Below, piece by piece: positions 29,555-36,244 of a stretch of 64,000 nucleotides of DNA (positions are counted from its first letter, which is position 1; every line of letters starts with the position of its first letter). The notes under the pieces were generated by a model. That model ran no database searches. It was given only the letters and a program-made list of their open reading frames with translations, and was not told the DNA's origin. The position numbers were made by a program, and so were the translations under genes. The stretch comes from Acidobacteriota bacterium (GTDB taxonomy: Bacteria > Acidobacteriota > Vicinamibacteria > Vicinamibacterales > UBA2999): positions 186,001-250,000 of the forward strand of contig CANKJK010000001.1 in NCBI GenBank assembly GCA_947482665.1. Direction: 5' to 3'.

Positions 29555-29583
29555 ATCCTAGTGACGGTTCCAGCGATTGTCAA
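29555..29583 (-). promoter_or_regulatory. Sigma-70 promoter of the rplM-rpsI-rpsB-tsf operon
   Basis: On the minus strand TTGACA (29578-29583) is separated by exactly 17 bases from TAGGAT (29555-29560). The -35 is a perfect consensus. A start near 29548 leaves a leader of about 70 bases before rplM, long enough for L13 autoregulation. Confidence 0.75.
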
Positions 29584-29704
29584 GCGGCTGGAACCGAGAT
29601 GGATGTCCAGTTGTAGTGCCCGTGATTGTAAGCTTCTGACGGTTTCGTGGGTCAGCGTGGGCGAGCGGGGCCGCCAGCTAGCCGGCTTTGCTCTGAGCGT
29701 GTGC

Positions 29705-29720
29705 TGGCACGCCGGTTGCG
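29705..29720 (+). promoter_or_regulatory. Sigma-54 promoter of the pil operon
   Basis: TGGCACG-N4-TTGC matches the sigma-54 -24/-12 consensus at all specified positions (GG at 29706-29707, GC at 29718-29719, ten bases between). A start near 29731 would leave only about seven bases before the pilM ATG at 29738. Confidence 0.75.
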
Positions 29721-29737
29721 ATACAAGGATTACTATC

Positions 29738-30808
29738 ATGGCGCTTTTCCGCTTCGGCCAACCTCCATCTGTCATTGGCCTTGATATCGGGTCCGGCGCG
29801 ATCAAGGCTGTCGAACTGCAGCCGGCCGGGAAAGGGTTCCGCGTTGCAGCCTACGCGTCGGAACCGGTTCCGCCGGGAAGTATCGGAGAAGGCAGCATTC
29901 GGGATCCGGAGGGCGTGGCGCGTGCCATCCGTGCCGCGCTGGCGCGCGGAGGGTTCCGCGGCCGCGATGTCTGCGTTTCGCTGTCCGGCAACGCCGTCAT
30001 CGTGAAGAAGATTGTGCTGCCGGTGATGACGCCGGGCGAACTGGCGGATTCGATCGTCTGGGAGGCCGAGCAGTACATTCCGTTCGATGTGCAGGATGTG
30101 AATCTGGACTACCAGATTCTGGACCCTGGAACCGGCCCGGACTCTCGCGGCAGCATGGAAGTGCTCCTCGTGGCAGCGAAGAAGGACCGCACCGCGGAGT
30201 ATGCGGCCGTCGTGGAGGCCGCCGGGCGGACGCCTGTGGTGGTGGATGTGGATGCCTTCGCGTTGCAGAATGCCTATGAGGCGAATTACGGACTCGACGG
30301 AAGCGCGGTGGTCGTGCTCATGAATGCCGGGGCCAGCGCAGTCAACGTCAACATCCTGCAGGACGGCCGTTCCGTGTTCACGCGTGATATTTCAGTGGGT
30401 GGGAACGCCTATCGAGATGCCCTCCAGCGTGAACTCGGTGTTGGGCCCGAGGATGCGGACCGGCTCAAGCGCGGGGGACGCGTCGAGGGTGTTCCGGAGG
30501 ATGAGGTCCCTCCGGTTCTGCGCGCCGTGACGGAGCAGATCATGCTCGAAGTCCAGAAGACCTTTGATTTCTTCAAGGCGACCACGGCCGCTGATCGGAT
30601 CGACCGGGTGGTGCTGAGCGGAGGGGCCTCTCAGGTTGACGGGTTCGCCGCGATCGTGCAGTCCCGGTTCGGCATCCCGGCAGAGCCGCTCGACCCCTTC
30701 AGACACATCGTGTGGGACAGCGCCCGTCTTGGCTGCGACGCAAGCGAGGCCGCGCCGGTCGCGGCCGTGGCCGTGGGCCTCGGACTCCGCAGGGCGGGCG
30801 ACCGGTGA
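29738..30808 (+). CDS. pilM: Type IV pilus assembly protein PilM
   Basis: Cytoplasmic actin-like ATPase-fold protein that anchors the PilN tail at the inner membrane. The 356-residue protein shows VIGLDIGSGAIKAVEL, LSGNAVIVKKIVLP, WEAEQYIPFDVQDVNLDYQIL over residues 105-125, and the C-terminal VVLSGGASQVDGF motif. ATG 29738 gives the normal PilM start (MALFRFG); the longer frame lies in the promoter region. It heads pilMNOPQ and its stop overlaps the pilN GTG. Confidence 0.95.
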   Translation: MALFRFGQPPSVIGLDIGSGAIKAVELQPAGKGFRVAAYASEPVPPGSIGEGSIRDPEGVARAIRAALARGGFRGRDVCVSLSGNAVIVKKIVLPVMTPGELADSIVWEAEQYIPFDVQDVNLDYQILDPGTGPDSRGSMEVLLVAAKKDRTAEYAAVVEAAGRTPVVVDVDAFALQNAYEANYGLDGSAVVVLMNAGASAVNVNILQDGRSVFTRDISVGGNAYRDALQRELGVGPEDADRLKRGGRVEGVPEDEVPPVLRAVTEQIMLEVQKTFDFFKATTAADRIDRVVLSGGASQVDGFAAIVQSRFGIPAEPLDPFRHIVWDSARLGCDASEAAPVAAVAVGLGLRRAGDR

Positions 30809-31440
30809 TCCGTATCAATCTCCTGCGCACCGCTCCGGCGCCCGCGCGCGCCCGGCTGGCGGGACCGGCTGCGGCCGTGCCGCTGGCCTGCGCCGCTGTG
30901 CTCCTTGCCGGCGCGGTCGGTATTGGCTGGTGGTATTGGTCGCTGACCCGCGCGGAGCAGTCCGTGGCGGCGGAGTTGGCGACCGCCAGGCAGGAGGCGG
31001 AGCGCTTGAAGGGTGTGATTGCCGAGGTGGCCCAATTCGAGCGGCGCAAAGAGCAGCTCAAGCTGCGGGTGGATCTCATCGAGGAATTGCGGGCCAACCA
31101 GAGTGTCCCGGTCAAGCTGGTGGATGCGGTGAGCCGGAGTCTGCCGGAGATGCTCTGGCTGACGCACATGAAGCAGAGCGGGGCAGACCTGGTCATCGAG
31201 GGGCGCAGCACCACGCTCATTGCGCTGTCCGATCTGGTAGGGAATCTTGGTAATTCGCCCGTGTTTGAACGGCCCGTGGAACTGGTGGACAGCCAGGCGG
31301 AGAGCGCCGTTGCGGGTGCGGCGGGGACGGCGGAGCTCATCCGCTTCACGCTGAAGGCGCGGATCGCGGGATCGACGAAACCCGTGCCAGGGCCGCCTCC
31401 GGCAGCGGCGGCTACACCCGGGAAAGCGGGGGGCAAGTAG
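30805..31440 (+). CDS. pilN: Type IV pilus assembly protein PilN
   Basis: Inner-membrane protein of the pilus alignment complex. The 211-residue product begins with the PilM-binding motif IRINLLR (residues 2-8), then a membrane helix (about 22-45, with a GIGWWYWSL end), a coiled-coil stretch (EQSVAAELATARQEAERLK) and a ferredoxin-like periplasmic domain with a PEMLWLTHM segment. The C-tail is proline/alanine-rich. The GTG start overlaps the pilM stop (GTGA). Confidence 0.93.
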   Translation: MIRINLLRTAPAPARARLAGPAAAVPLACAAVLLAGAVGIGWWYWSLTRAEQSVAAELATARQEAERLKGVIAEVAQFERRKEQLKLRVDLIEELRANQSVPVKLVDAVSRSLPEMLWLTHMKQSGADLVIEGRSTTLIALSDLVGNLGNSPVFERPVELVDSQAESAVAGAAGTAELIRFTLKARIAGSTKPVPGPPPAAAATPGKAGGK

Positions 31441-31441
31441 C

Positions 31442-32065
31442 ATGGCGGACTCCCGCATTTCCCGGTGGCCCTGGTATAGCCAGATTGGTGGATGTCTGGC
31501 GCTGACGGCGCTGGCCACCGCCGGCTTCTTTACGTACTACGCCCAACCGGTCGGGCAGCAACTGGCGGAACAGTATGCGCAACTCGCCGCCGTGCAGGGC
31601 GAGATTCAGCGTGCCCAGGCGACGGCGCGGCGACTGCCGCAGTTCCGCGCGGATGTGGCGCGGCTTCAGCAGCAGTTGGACCAACTGCGTCCCGTTCTTC
31701 CAGAGGAGAAAGACGTCGCGGACCTCCTGCGCCGGCTTCAGGGAATGGCGACGGAATCGCGCCTGGTCATCCGCGCGTTTACGCCCCGACCAGTCGCGCC
31801 GAAGCTCCTGCACGTGGAGTGGCCGATCTCCCTCGAGTTGGAGGGCACGTATCACGATGTTGGGCATTTCCTGGCCCGCATCGGGGGCTTCCCGCGGATT
31901 ATCAATGTGACGGACCTCGAGGTGCGGGCCAAGGAGAAGACCGTACCTGGCGGTTCGACGGTCTCGGTGCTCTGCACTGCGACGACATTTGTCCTCACGC
32001 CCGCGAAGGACCCCGCGCCGGCGGCGGCAGGGAGCAAGGTCGTACCGGGAGGGAAGAAGTCGTGA
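31442..32065 (+). CDS. pilO: Type IV pilus assembly protein PilO
   Basis: Inner-membrane partner of PilN. The 207-residue protein has a short cytoplasmic start, a membrane helix (about 15-35, GCLALTALATAGFFTYYAQP), a coiled coil (LAEQYAQLAAVQGEIQRAQA) and a periplasmic domain with LPEEKDVADLLRRLQ and YHDVGHFLARIGGFPRIINV, which is diagnostic for PilO. ATG 31442 begins one base after the pilN stop; its stop overlaps the pilP GTG. Confidence 0.94.
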   Translation: MADSRISRWPWYSQIGGCLALTALATAGFFTYYAQPVGQQLAEQYAQLAAVQGEIQRAQATARRLPQFRADVARLQQQLDQLRPVLPEEKDVADLLRRLQGMATESRLVIRAFTPRPVAPKLLHVEWPISLELEGTYHDVGHFLARIGGFPRIINVTDLEVRAKEKTVPGGSTVSVLCTATTFVLTPAKDPAPAAAGSKVVPGGKKS

Positions 32066-32535
32066 CACGGCGTGCCGTTCCGATCGCTGCGCTGATCGCG
32101 ATGGTTGTGCTGTGCGCGGGGACGGCGTCTGCCCAGCGGGCACAGGCACCGCGCACGCCGGCGCCGATCATCGCGCCGCTGGACAGTTACGACCCCGGGG
32201 GCCGGCGCGACCCGTTCGTCAGTCTCCTTCGGACAGGCCCCGACCCCAATGGCCGCGGCAATGTGCCGAGACCGGCTGGAGTGGCCGGCCTCGTGGTGAG
32301 CGAGGTGGCGCTGAAAGGGATATTGCAGTCGGAGTCCGGGTACGCCGCGCTCCTGCAAGGGGCCGACACCAGAACGTACGTCGTGCATGTGGGCGATCGC
32401 CTGTTTGACGGCCAGGTTCGCGCCATTGCGCTGGACAGCGTCGTGTTGTTGCAGCGATCGAGCGATCCGCTGGTGACGCCGCAGGAAGTTGAAGTACGGA
32501 AACGTCTAAGGCAGGTGGGAGAAGGCAAGCGATGA
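32062..32535 (+). CDS. pilP: Type IV pilus assembly lipoprotein-like PilP
   Basis: Periplasmic link between PilNO and the PilQ secretin. The 157-residue protein has a signal-like hydrophobic segment (about 6-22, ending TASAQ), a proline-rich linker with SYDPGGRRDPF, and a beta domain (AGLVVSEVALKGIL, AALLQGADTRTYVVHVGDRLFDG). No lipobox cysteine is present, unlike the Neisseria lipoprotein. GTG 32062 overlaps the pilO stop and the end overlaps pilQ by ATGA. Confidence 0.9.
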   Translation: MTRRAVPIAALIAMVVLCAGTASAQRAQAPRTPAPIIAPLDSYDPGGRRDPFVSLLRTGPDPNGRGNVPRPAGVAGLVVSEVALKGILQSESGYAALLQGADTRTYVVHVGDRLFDGQVRAIALDSVVLLQRSSDPLVTPQEVEVRKRLRQVGEGKR

Positions 32536-34322
32536 CGTGGTCAACATGGAGCCGCAAAGGGTTCGCGCTGAGCGTGGCTGTAATGGCGGTGGCCGGGGTA
32601 TGGCCGTCGCTCAATGCAGCCAGCGTCGTGCTCCGGTCGGTGAGCAGCCGGCCCGAAGGAGGGCGGCCGATGGTGGCGATCGAGGCGTCCGCGCCAGTCG
32701 CCTACGAAACGACCCGGCCGGATTCCCGGACGTTCGTGGTGGAACTACGTGACGTGGACGCCACGCCGGCACTGTCGCGCGTGCCTGCGGCGATCGCGGG
32801 CGTTCGCTCGATCGCGGTCGAGCAGGACCGCACTGTGGACGGCGTGTCCATCGCCCGCGTCAGGCTCGGCATTGATGAGGGCGATCGGCCGAGTGCTCAT
32901 AGCGCGAAGAACGTCATCTTCATCGATCCTGGGACGAGTCGTGGAGGGGGCGGTCAGGAGCGTCCGGCGAATCCGGTGCTGAGTACGGCACGGCCACAGG
33001 GCCCGGGGGCGGCACCGGCGCCAGTGCGGGCTCTCCAGAACGGGGTGGTTCAGTCGGGTGAACCAAAGAAATTCACCGGTCAGCCGGTCAGCCTCGACTT
33101 CCAGGGTGCGGACCTTCGCGCGGTGCTGCGGGTGTTTGCCGAGATTTCCGGTCTAAACGTGGTGATTGATCCCGCCATCCAGGGCAGCGTTGATGTCGCC
33201 CTTCGCGATGTCCCCTGGGACCAGGCGCTGGAGATCATCCTGCGTTCCAACAAGCTGGGCTACTTCCTTGAGGGCACGATTGTCCGGATTGCGCCGCTGA
33301 CGGTCCTGGCTGACGAGGAGACACAACGCCGGAAGCTGGCGGATGAGCAGGCCCTATCCGGCCGGCTCCAGGTCATGACGCGGGCGCTCAGTTACGCAAA
33401 GGCTGAGGACGTGGCGCCGCTTCTCACGAAGACGATTCTGTCGTCGCGCGGTCAGGTGCAGACGGATGCGCGCACCAATACGCTCATCATCAACGACCTG
33501 CCCGAGCGCCTGGCGCAGGCAGTCGAGTTGGTGAACACGCTCGACCAGCCGCAACCACAGGTCGAAATCGAAGCGCGGATCGTCCAGACGACCCGTGAGT
33601 TCGCACGGACGCTCGGCGTGCAGTGGGGCGTCGGCGCACGGGCCAGCCAGGCCCTGGGCAACACGCTGCCCGCCGCATTCCCGAATCAGGGGTCAATTAC
33701 GGGGCGTACCGGAGGCTCGCAGGGGGACACGGCGGAGGACGGGGCCAAGACCGCAGTGAACCTGGGCGTCACGGGAGCGAGTTCGGCACTCGGACTCGCG
33801 CTGGGGTCGGTCAATGGGGCCGTCAACCTCGATGTGGCCTTGTCCGCGCTTGAGCGCCATGGCCAGGGGCGGCTCCTGTCGACACCACGCGTGGCCACGC
33901 AGAACAACGTCGAGGCGGAGATCACGCAGGGTGTGCAGATACCGATTCAGACGGTGGCGAACAACACCGTCACGGTGTCATTCAAGGACGCAGCCCTGAC
34001 CTTGAAGGTGACACCTCAGATCACGGCGGCCAACACGGTGATCATGCGCATTTCCGTCGAGAACGCGGCGCCCGATTTCAGTCGCTCGGTGAATAACATT
34101 CCGCCCATCGACACCCAACGCGCGGTGACGCAGGTCTTGGTGACCAACGGCGAGACGACGGTCATTGGCGGTATCTATGTCAGTCGCGAGCAATCAAGCC
34201 AGGACCGGACACCGGGGCTGAATCGCATTCCGTTGCTCGGCTGGCTGTTCAAGCGGGACGGGGTGACGGATGAGAGCCGTGAGTTGCTCATCTTCATCAC
34301 GCCGCGCATCGTGCGGATGTGA
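32532..34322 (+). CDS. pilQ: Type IV pilus secretin PilQ
   Basis: Outer-membrane channel for the pilus fibre. The 596-residue protein has a signal peptide (about 1-28), an AMIN domain (about 30-125), an N0/STN domain with ISLDFQGADLRAVLR-like sequence (VSLDFQGADLRAVLRVFAE, about 175-195), a secretin-N KH-like domain and the C-terminal secretin barrel with RLLSTPRVATQNN, IPIQTV and the LLGWLFKRD motif near the end. The glycine/threonine-rich insertion near 375-400 is unusual but outside conserved parts. ATG 32532 overlaps pilP. Confidence 0.95.
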   Translation: MTWSTWSRKGFALSVAVMAVAGVWPSLNAASVVLRSVSSRPEGGRPMVAIEASAPVAYETTRPDSRTFVVELRDVDATPALSRVPAAIAGVRSIAVEQDRTVDGVSIARVRLGIDEGDRPSAHSAKNVIFIDPGTSRGGGGQERPANPVLSTARPQGPGAAPAPVRALQNGVVQSGEPKKFTGQPVSLDFQGADLRAVLRVFAEISGLNVVIDPAIQGSVDVALRDVPWDQALEIILRSNKLGYFLEGTIVRIAPLTVLADEETQRRKLADEQALSGRLQVMTRALSYAKAEDVAPLLTKTILSSRGQVQTDARTNTLIINDLPERLAQAVELVNTLDQPQPQVEIEARIVQTTREFARTLGVQWGVGARASQALGNTLPAAFPNQGSITGRTGGSQGDTAEDGAKTAVNLGVTGASSALGLALGSVNGAVNLDVALSALERHGQGRLLSTPRVATQNNVEAEITQGVQIPIQTVANNTVTVSFKDAALTLKVTPQITAANTVIMRISVENAAPDFSRSVNNIPPIDTQRAVTQVLVTNGETTVIGGIYVSREQSSQDRTPGLNRIPLLGWLFKRDGVTDESRELLIFITPRIVRM

Positions 34323-34978
34323 CCGTGCAGGCGCGGAGGAGGCACAGAACCGTGAAGTGCAGAGGATGGATGCTGGCGGTGCTGCTGGCAGCGGGAGCGG
34401 CGGCTGGCTGCGGCGACGTGGCGCGAAGCGGACGGTCACCGGCGCTCGTGGTGATTGGATCACTGGAAGCGGCATCGGGCGCGTCTCCGACAACGTTTGG
34501 GGGCACGCTGGATTCCGACGTGATCACCAACGTCACACGAACGGTGGGTGGCGCGCAGGTACTGGAACCTACGGTCTTCAGTGACGTGGGTCGCGCGACG
34601 CTCCGGCTGACCCTGAAGGACCCGGGCGTGCCAGGGAATGCGTCGTCGCCATCGAGCCTGAACCAGGTGACGATTACCCGCTATCAGGTGACGTTTCGGC
34701 GGTCGGACGGGCGGAATACCCCTGGCGTCGACGTACCGCAGCCCTTCGATTCGGCCGTGACGGTCACAGTGCCCGCGGATGGGACCACGACGGCGACCTT
34801 CGAACTCGTGCGCAACACGGCGAAGCAGGAAGCCCCGCTCTCCGCTCTGCGGTCGAGCGGCGTCGTCATTGCAACGGTTGCGGATGTGACGTTCATCGGT
34901 CGGGACCTGGCCGGGAACACGGTGACGGTGACCGGCAGCATCGGCGTGCAGTTCGGTAACTTCGGCGACCCGCGGTAG
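34319..34978 (+). CDS. Lipoprotein of unknown function in the pil operon
   Basis: A 219-residue exported protein with a basic N-terminus, a hydrophobic stretch and lipobox AAGC near residue 31. The mature part is threonine/valine-rich beta sequence with no recognised domain. The GTG start overlaps the pilQ stop (GTGA); an internal GTG at 34352 would give a more typical lipoprotein signal. Position suggests it is co-expressed with the pilus machine, possibly as an outer-membrane accessory, which is inference. Confidence 0.7.
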   Translation: MTVQARRRHRTVKCRGWMLAVLLAAGAAAGCGDVARSGRSPALVVIGSLEAASGASPTTFGGTLDSDVITNVTRTVGGAQVLEPTVFSDVGRATLRLTLKDPGVPGNASSPSSLNQVTITRYQVTFRRSDGRNTPGVDVPQPFDSAVTVTVPADGTTTATFELVRNTAKQEAPLSALRSSGVVIATVADVTFIGRDLAGNTVTVTGSIGVQFGNFGDPR

Positions 34979-34984
34979 AGGACT

Positions 34985-36244
34985 ATGCGCAGCATCTGGA
35001 TATCGATGAAGACGGCGCGAATGGTGGCGGTCGGTGCGCTGCTCATGGCCGCCGCTGGCTGTGGTCTGGAGGAGCAGAAGGCCGCGACGCTCATTGCGCC
35101 GTCGGAATTCAGCCTGTCGGTGACTGCAACGGTGTTGCCCGACCAACTGCCGCGTGACGGTCAGTCGCAGGCGGTGGTGACGGCGTTGGTGCGTGACGCC
35201 CGAGGACAGGCCGTGGCTGGACAGCGGTTGAGTGTCTCGGCGACCGTCGGCACGGTGACGCAGTCCGAAGTGACGACGGACTCGTCCGGACGTGCATCGG
35301 TCGGGTACACCGCGCCGGTGGCCAGCACTGTCGTGGGCGATGGACAGGCGGTCATTGCCCTGACCCCTCTCAGCGGCAACGCTGGCGACGCGGTCGCCCG
35401 GACCGTGTCGCTCAGATTGACGGGTACCCCCAATACCGGTGCGCCCGTCGCGGTGTTTTCGCTTCTGCCGACGGCTCCGGAGCGCGGACAACTGGTGACA
35501 TTTGATGCCAGCGCCACGACCGACGAAGGTGCGCGCTGCGGCGATGCCTGCACCTACGCCTGGAACTTCGGGAGTGAGGCGTCGGCGTCGGGCCGCACGG
35601 CGACCTATCGCTTCCTGCAGGCGCGCACGTATGCGGTGACGCTGACGGTCACCGATGCCACGGGGACGAGCACAAGCGCGACGCAGTCGATCGCCGTGGT
35701 GAATCCTGCCGCGCCCACGGCCGTGTTCACAACCTCGCCGAGTTCCCCAGCCATTCTGCAGAACCTGAATTTTGTGGCGACCGGGTCGGCGGCTGCGGCG
35801 GGCCACACGCTTGCGCTGTTCGACTGGAGCTATGGGGACGGCGCCACCTCCAGCGGTACGAGTGCATCGTCGAGCCACGCGTACACGACGACCGGTACGT
35901 ATACCGTGACGCTGACGGTCACCGATGACGTGGGGCAGACCCGGACGGCCAGTGGCACAGTGATCGTGGTCAACGGGCTCACGGCGAATTTCTCTGTGTC
36001 GCCGAGTAGCCCAGTCATCAACCGGACGGTGAACGTGAGCGGCGCGGACTCCACGTCCGTGGCCGGGGCGAGCATCGTGCTCTATCAGTGGGACTTCGGC
36101 AACGGCCTGACGTCCTCCGATTCCGGCGCGACCGCGACAACCACGTATACGACGGCCGGCACCTACACGATCCGCCTCACCGTGCGAGACAGTGCGGGCC
36201 GGACCGCCACCGTGACGAAGAGCGTCACGGTCACGGCCTCGTGA
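34985..36244 (+). CDS. Lipoprotein with bacterial Ig-like and PKD repeats
   Basis: A 419-residue exported protein. The lipobox AAGC lies near residue 27. It has an invasin-like Ig domain (about 38-135, with AVVTALVRDARGQAVAGQRL) and three PKD domains (about 150-240, 242-330, 332-419). The PKD hallmarks are Y-x-W-N/D-F/Y-G-x-G-x-x and YTTTGTYTVTLTVTD. Two PKD copies share a nearly identical DNA segment (around 35637 and 35907), pointing to internal duplication. Start ATG 34985 or 35006. Likely a surface-exposed adhesion or binding protein next to the pilus genes. Confidence 0.85.
   Translation: MRSIWISMKTARMVAVGALLMAAAGCGLEEQKAATLIAPSEFSLSVTATVLPDQLPRDGQSQAVVTALVRDARGQAVAGQRLSVSATVGTVTQSEVTTDSSGRASVGYTAPVASTVVGDGQAVIALTPLSGNAGDAVARTVSLRLTGTPNTGAPVAVFSLLPTAPERGQLVTFDASATTDEGARCGDACTYAWNFGSEASASGRTATYRFLQARTYAVTLTVTDATGTSTSATQSIAVVNPAAPTAVFTTSPSSPAILQNLNFVATGSAAAAGHTLALFDWSYGDGATSSGTSASSSHAYTTTGTYTVTLTVTDDVGQTRTASGTVIVVNGLTANFSVSPSSPVINRTVNVSGADSTSVAGASIVLYQWDFGNGLTSSDSGATATTTYTTAGTYTIRLTVRDSAGRTATVTKSVTVTAS

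Follow-up and report, generated by a model that had tools for sequence, protein, structure and literature searches.

A conserved sigma-54 promoter with its own type of enhancer predicted before pilMNOPQ in Vicinamibacterales

The pilMNOPQ locus

The stretch of DNA analysed here (the window, 64 kb) lies on contig C1 of a 3.53-Mb draft genome (38 contigs, 97% complete) and contains five consecutive genes of the PilM, PilN, PilO, PilP and PilQ families, with the PilP match below the curated cut-off (Table 1). The relatives of its pilM belong to Vicinamibacterales and other Acidobacteriota. Since the five genes overlap or nearly touch, they probably form one operon. On the other side of the intergenic region the ribosomal operon rplM-rpsI points away from pilM. 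Positions 34319-36244, after pilQ, hold a small lipoprotein-like ORF and a PKD-repeat-like protein, and a peptidase-like gene from about 36241 overlaps the preceding stop; the putative sigma-54 operon may extend into these genes.

Table 1. Features of the pilM locus, with positions counted in the window
Feature	Position	Strand	Basis
Divergent sigma-70-like rplM-rpsI promoter, TTGACA-17-TAGGAT	29555..29583	-	Consensus scan 10/12; one versus 0.1 in shuffles
Putative enhancer, two AC-N6-GT-type palindromes 19 bp apart	29620..29648	+	Leave-one-out 21.7 bits; pair match 7/8 fixed bases
Predicted sigma-54 -24/-12 promoter element, TGGCACG-CCGG-TTGC	29705..29719	+	Sequence; kept in 63/99 homologous loci; PSSM 15.1 bits
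Shine-Dalgarno-like AAGGA, upstream of predicted transcript start	29725..29729	+	Sequence
Predicted 7-nt leader	29731..29737	+	Inferred from sigma-54 promoter geometry relative to the -12 GC
pilM	29738..30808	+	Pfam PilM_2 E=8e-69; NCBIfam pilM above cut-off
pilN	30805..31440	+	Pfam PilN E=2e-12
pilO	31442..32065	+	Pfam PilO E=3e-29
pilP	32062..32535	+	Pfam PilP E=4e-4, below curated cut-off; position and overlap with neighbours
pilQ secretin	32532..34322	+	NCBIfam IV_pilus_PilQ, 410 bits versus cut-off 284

A sigma-54 promoter element before pilM

The first-pass annotation of this DNA described a near-perfect sigma-54 promoter directly before pilM, and the sequence bears this out. Positions 29705-29719 read TGGCACGCCGGTTGC, matching all 11 fixed bases of TGGCACG-N4-TTGC, and the GG (29706-29707) and GC (29718-29719) are separated by the canonical gap of exactly ten bases. 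Measured against TGGCACR-N4-TTGCW, the sole departure is base 29720, which is G rather than A or T. A scan for the same motif, as the annotation had proposed, found no second exact copy in the 64 kb and one elsewhere in the genome, inside a long ORF. Such a lone 11-base match is unconvincing in itself, because the genome is G+C-rich and copies with at most one mismatch (61) are not commoner than those of the reversed pattern (113); genome-wide counts are therefore of no help, and it is position and conservation that decide. The narrower TGGYAY form gave 15 against 5 genome-wide.

Conservation was assessed in 99 homologous pilM loci from Vicinamibacterales and close outgroups within Acidobacteriota. 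In 63 of these, TGGYAYN5TTGC was present in the 200 nt preceding pilM, compared with 100 dinucleotide-preserving shuffle sets that averaged 0.05 and never exceeded 1; the count was 0 both for the reversed pattern and on the opposite strand. The flanks of the sites differ freely and their distance to the start codon ranges from 28 to about 190 nt among the loci, so this is not general conservation of the DNA. The first-pass annotation had named two observations that would count against the promoter, a genome lacking rpoN and a mapped start elsewhere with sigma-70 elements. The genome does encode RpoN (PF04552, E=9.4e-66 at G000:C7:9384-9857), as do 52 of the 53 genomes tested, and a consensus scan found no sigma-70-like promoter on the + strand of the pilM/rplM intergenic region. 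Together with the enhancer described below, these observations make it very likely that 29705-29719 is a genuine sigma-54-dependent promoter of pilMNOPQ.

The promoter is absent from 34 of the 99 relatives, about a third, and a loss of rpoN was rejected as the cause, given its near-constant presence. On a quick PilM tree promoter presence changes at least 15 times, four of these changes being forced by starred branches, compared with a mean of 28 when shuffled. Judged from these loci, the promoter is widespread in the order but labile.

Two side observations were made in the same set of loci. The word CCGATAA, which resembles a sigma-28 -10 element, is a conserved feature of the DNA separating rplM from pilM, where 17 of 25 promoterless loci have it (0.1 expected); L034, L037, L039-L043 and L127 are among the many loci that contain it there. 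It is absent from the window and may be a second pilM promoter or an element of rplM. Loci L195 and L159, titled Bifidobacterium breve and Acidimicrobiia, carry a pilM locus of Vicinamibacterales type that falls inside the acidobacterial tree, and are probably mislabelled or contaminated MAG contigs.

A putative enhancer upstream of the promoter

Activator-binding repeats had been suggested as something to look for in 29584-29704, and conserved tandem palindromes do lie there. The enhancer was sought by word counts and EM upstream of the -24 element in 54 non-redundant sigma-54-bearing loci. EM returned a conserved 28-nt motif (log-likelihood 509, versus 100-105 for shuffles) made up of two AC-N6-GT palindromes at a spacing of 19 bp, with a consensus of about CGATTCTGTNATCGGCTGACGATTCTGTNA. 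Of the 54 loci, 36 had a leave-one-out score above 15 bits, a level that no shuffle exceeded. Among the 35 loci first scored as promoterless, the only one to exceed 15 bits was L139, which has GGGTACCAGTTTTGC; the enhancer is high-scoring in no locus truly without the promoter.

The distance from the enhancer to the -24 element is usually about 88 nt (mode 86-90 nt). Nine spacings lie off the mode, at 53, 56, 56, 73, 76, 76, 77, 98 and 110 nt, and these fall near whole helical turns from it (V test p=0.008, a guide only since the loci are related; one further match at 14 nt was left out). Such spacing is the architecture expected of an activator that would act by DNA looping. In the window the upstream palindrome, at 29620-29629, is a degenerate CC-N6-GT and the downstream one, at 29639-29648, is AC-N6-GT; the pair ends 56 nt before the -24 element, thus supplying one of the two 56-nt spacings. 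With the window excluded from the model its enhancer, scored over 29621-29648, reached 21.7 bits, a score that none of 5000 shuffles attained, against 9.1 for the next best position in the 64 kb. It is nonetheless one of the weaker copies and stands at a less common spacing.

PilS-PilR and the pilA promoter

A search for a PilR-type activator, also proposed in the first-pass annotation, found a PilS-PilR pair on contig C15, in the gene order pilB-pilT-pilC-pilS-pilR-pilA; the genome has about 20 NtrC-type activators. Here pilA is preceded by a sigma-54 site, TGGCACCCGGGTTGC, so the arrangement known from other bacteria, sigma-54 with PilR at pilA, is found in this genome as well. The pilA promoters of 20 genomes, this one included, carry upstream TGAC-N7-GTCA boxes, as a rule a pair spaced about 23-24 bp, and N7 sites with at most one mismatch are present in 20 of 20 pilA loci, while no N6 site was found near the pilA promoter in the same 20 genomes. 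At the same stringency the pilM enhancers show N6 sites in 22 of 54 loci and N7 sites in 5 of 54, and the palindromes before pilM are of the N6 type, 19 bp apart, rather than paired TGAC-N7-GTCA boxes. Because the pilM enhancer is unlike the PilR-type pilA enhancer of the same lineage, PilR is probably not the activator of the pilM promoter, and the earlier hint in that direction finds no support.

A candidate two-component system

When the pilM-type enhancer pattern was searched for in 18 genomes, it repeatedly marked one other place, upstream of an operon that lies next to an ABC-F ATPase gene and encodes an NtrC-type response regulator together with a PAS-domain histidine kinase (control matches 0). 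The orthologue in the present genome lies at G000:C14:59.6-62.2 kb, unlinked to pilM, and its regulator is 78% identical, the next paralogue being at 48%. NGGYAYN5TTGC was found upstream of the kinase gene in 30 of 33 orthologues (reversed control 0), and the pilM-type enhancer scored above 12 bits there in 20 of the 33, a level reached by 7 of 300 shuffled stretches. In 18 of these 20 the distance from enhancer to -24 element is 75-78 nt, shorter than at pilM by about one helical turn. With the same type of enhancer and a sigma-54 promoter before its own operon, the kinase/activator pair looks autoregulated. The C14 pair is thus the best candidate regulator and, on balance, likely to be the pilM activator, with binding to the enhancer presumed from the shared site type.

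The copy before the kinase gene in this genome is weak (4.9 bits, with one clear half-site/palindrome, TTACACTTACGTAA). The pair is nearly universal, including in genomes whose pilM lacks the promoter, so its presence does not track that of the pilM promoter; the same near-universality of a second activator, on C3 beside a fliA-like sigma gene, makes the presence or absence of either regulator uninformative as a test. The C3 activator is not favoured, the enhancer scoring above 12 bits in 5 of 30 of its loci and at no constant spacing. The fliA-like gene itself (L204:11280-11400; G000:C3, about 191.3 kb) has a sigma-54 site, TGGTACCGCCGTTGC, adjoins the divergent NtrC-type regulator gene, and in this genome has a pilM-like enhancer (17.8 bits) whose distance to the -24 element is 78 nt. 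Similar palindromes may be common to related NtrC-type proteins. Given the weak kinase-operon copy and the similar site at the fliA-like gene, a related regulator could also be the pilM activator.

Another motif copy, TGGCATCCAGCTTGC, lies about 18 nt upstream of an aminotransferase-like gene next to flagellin (L205:8165-9370; G000:C1, 388164), where sigma-54 control of flagellin modification is possible.

Transcript start and leader

With the C of the -12 GC at 29719, transcription would begin at about 29731, leaving a leader of 7 nt before the ATG at 29738. These are the figures of the first-pass annotation, which follow from the same promoter geometry; what it did not mention is that such a start would leave the Shine-Dalgarno-like AAGGA outside the transcript. 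Six other loci have predicted leaders of at most 8 nt. An ATG start is found in 4 of the 7 short-leader loci, versus 8 of the 61 whose leaders are longer. Leaderless translation would fit such a difference, although with numbers so small and some starts uncertain this sign was set aside. Nor can the leader be lengthened by placing the pilM start further downstream, as the conserved core is reached before any other in-frame start codon. Either the pilM mRNA would be translated with almost no leader, or a second, unrecognised promoter is at work. A very short predicted leader is also seen at an infA-like gene (IF-1), where TGGCACACTGATTGC lies about 18 nt upstream (L023:1501-1752; G000:C5, 29758).

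Alternative explanations

The promoter, the enhancer, their conservation, rpoN and both regulator pairs are present in the sequences themselves, and the alternatives concern how they are to be read. That the pilM site is a chance match, with pilMNOPQ driven by a housekeeping promoter, might be argued from the lack of any excess of near-matches in the genome, from the many relatives in which the site is missing, and from a position so near the ATG that the Shine-Dalgarno sequence would go untranscribed. Against these stand the 63 loci where 0.05 would be expected, the conserved enhancer linked to the site, and a + strand with no sigma-70 candidate, and chance is scarcely credible. It is very improbable, too, that the enhancer serves the divergent rplM-rpsI operon. 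It does lie in the DNA between the two operons, some 40-65 nt upstream of the -35 element of rplM, but it is present only together with the pilM sigma-54 site, though 27 of the 35 promoterless loci keep the divergent rplM; its distance to the pilM -24 element is conserved and roughly in helical phase, and the same arrangement of enhancer and -24 element precedes an unrelated operon.

A single PilSR regulon for the whole pilus, in which PilR would activate the pilM promoter as at pilA, deserves more weight but is still unlikely. The genome has the PilS-PilR pair and the sigma-54 pilA promoter that it calls for, the TGAC/GTCA half-sites of the pilM and pilA enhancers look alike, and other T4P targets were predicted in a Geobacter PilR screen, as that work is cited in PMC6058289. 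The palindromes nevertheless differ in both internal gap and spacing (N7, about 23-24 bp apart, at pilA versus N6, 19 bp apart, at pilM), and the N6 type precedes another kinase/activator operon.

Comparison with known systems

What is known of sigma-54 in the control of pili concerns mainly the pilin gene, by way of PilR. PilR/sigma-54 control of pilA is established in Pseudomonas aeruginosa and Geobacter sulfurreducens (PMC6058289, PMC2725144), and the present case shares with it a -24/-12 promoter, a presumed NtrC-type activator and a type IV pilus target, with the organism's own pilA in the same arrangement. It differs in that the target here is pilMNOPQ, an assembly operon located far from pilSR, and in that the enhancer spacing and palindrome are unlike the pilA boxes. 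In Xanthomonas oryzae, RpoN2-PilRX controls pilAX and pilCX, as summarised in a review (PMC8657755), so that there too the reach of sigma-54 and PilR extends beyond the pilin to a gene of the pilus machine; the targets given in the relevant part of that review are pilA and pilC, and no pilM promoter is described there. In Myxococcus xanthus, NmpRSTU includes a non-PilR, apparently autoregulatory NtrC-type regulator that feeds into pilus gene control via a sigma-54 site (PMC6211767), which resembles what is proposed here, but NmpR acts on pilR (inside pilS) rather than on pilMNOPQ, and the sensors differ.

The first-pass annotation had called sigma-54 control of the assembly operon less usual. 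This is fair, yet such control is not unheard of: a Geobacter sulfurreducens screen, as cited in PMC6058289, predicted PilR/sigma-54 sites before other T4P biosynthesis genes. The likeness lies in sigma-54 sites before several such genes, and the difference is that in that account they are attributed to PilR. The text of a recent cross-phylum sigma-54 survey (PMC12316311) mentions neither Acidobacteria nor pilM, and our literature search found no paper joining Acidobacteria, sigma-54 and type IV pili.

A proposed mechanism and its implications

For binding, activation, start site and choice of regulator, we infer the following. RNA polymerase with RpoN would sit at 29705-29719, closed until activation. 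With the tandem AC-N6-GT palindromes at 29620-29648 as its binding site, an NtrC-type activator would loop over and open the promoter by ATP hydrolysis. The likely activator would be the C14 PAS kinase/NtrC-type regulator system, not PilR; in most relatives the operon of this system is itself preceded by a sigma-54 promoter and by an enhancer of the same kind, which points to autoregulation. Transcription of pilA would start from a separate sigma-54 promoter, the one with PilR-type boxes. Both the fibre subunit and the alignment/secretin complex would then depend on sigma-54 while answering to different signals.

The boldest reading, to which we assign a probability of about 0.5, is that the T4P machine of Vicinamibacterales is split into two sigma-54 modules, with PilSR directed at the pilin and a separate, autoregulated two-component system at pilMNOPQ. 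As part of this reading the pilM promoter would have been gained or lost repeatedly within the order, and a near-leaderless mRNA would be possible in this genome. As far as we have searched, what appears to be new is a conserved sigma-54 promoter with its own type of enhancer before pilMNOPQ in Acidobacteriota, together with a candidate two-component system.

The proposal names a testable regulator, a core two-component pair, and the site model allows its other targets to be searched for. A sigma-54 promoter that is conserved before pilMNOPQ and comes with an enhancer would imply that, in this little-studied phylum, it is the assembly of the machine that is switched, and not only the fibre.
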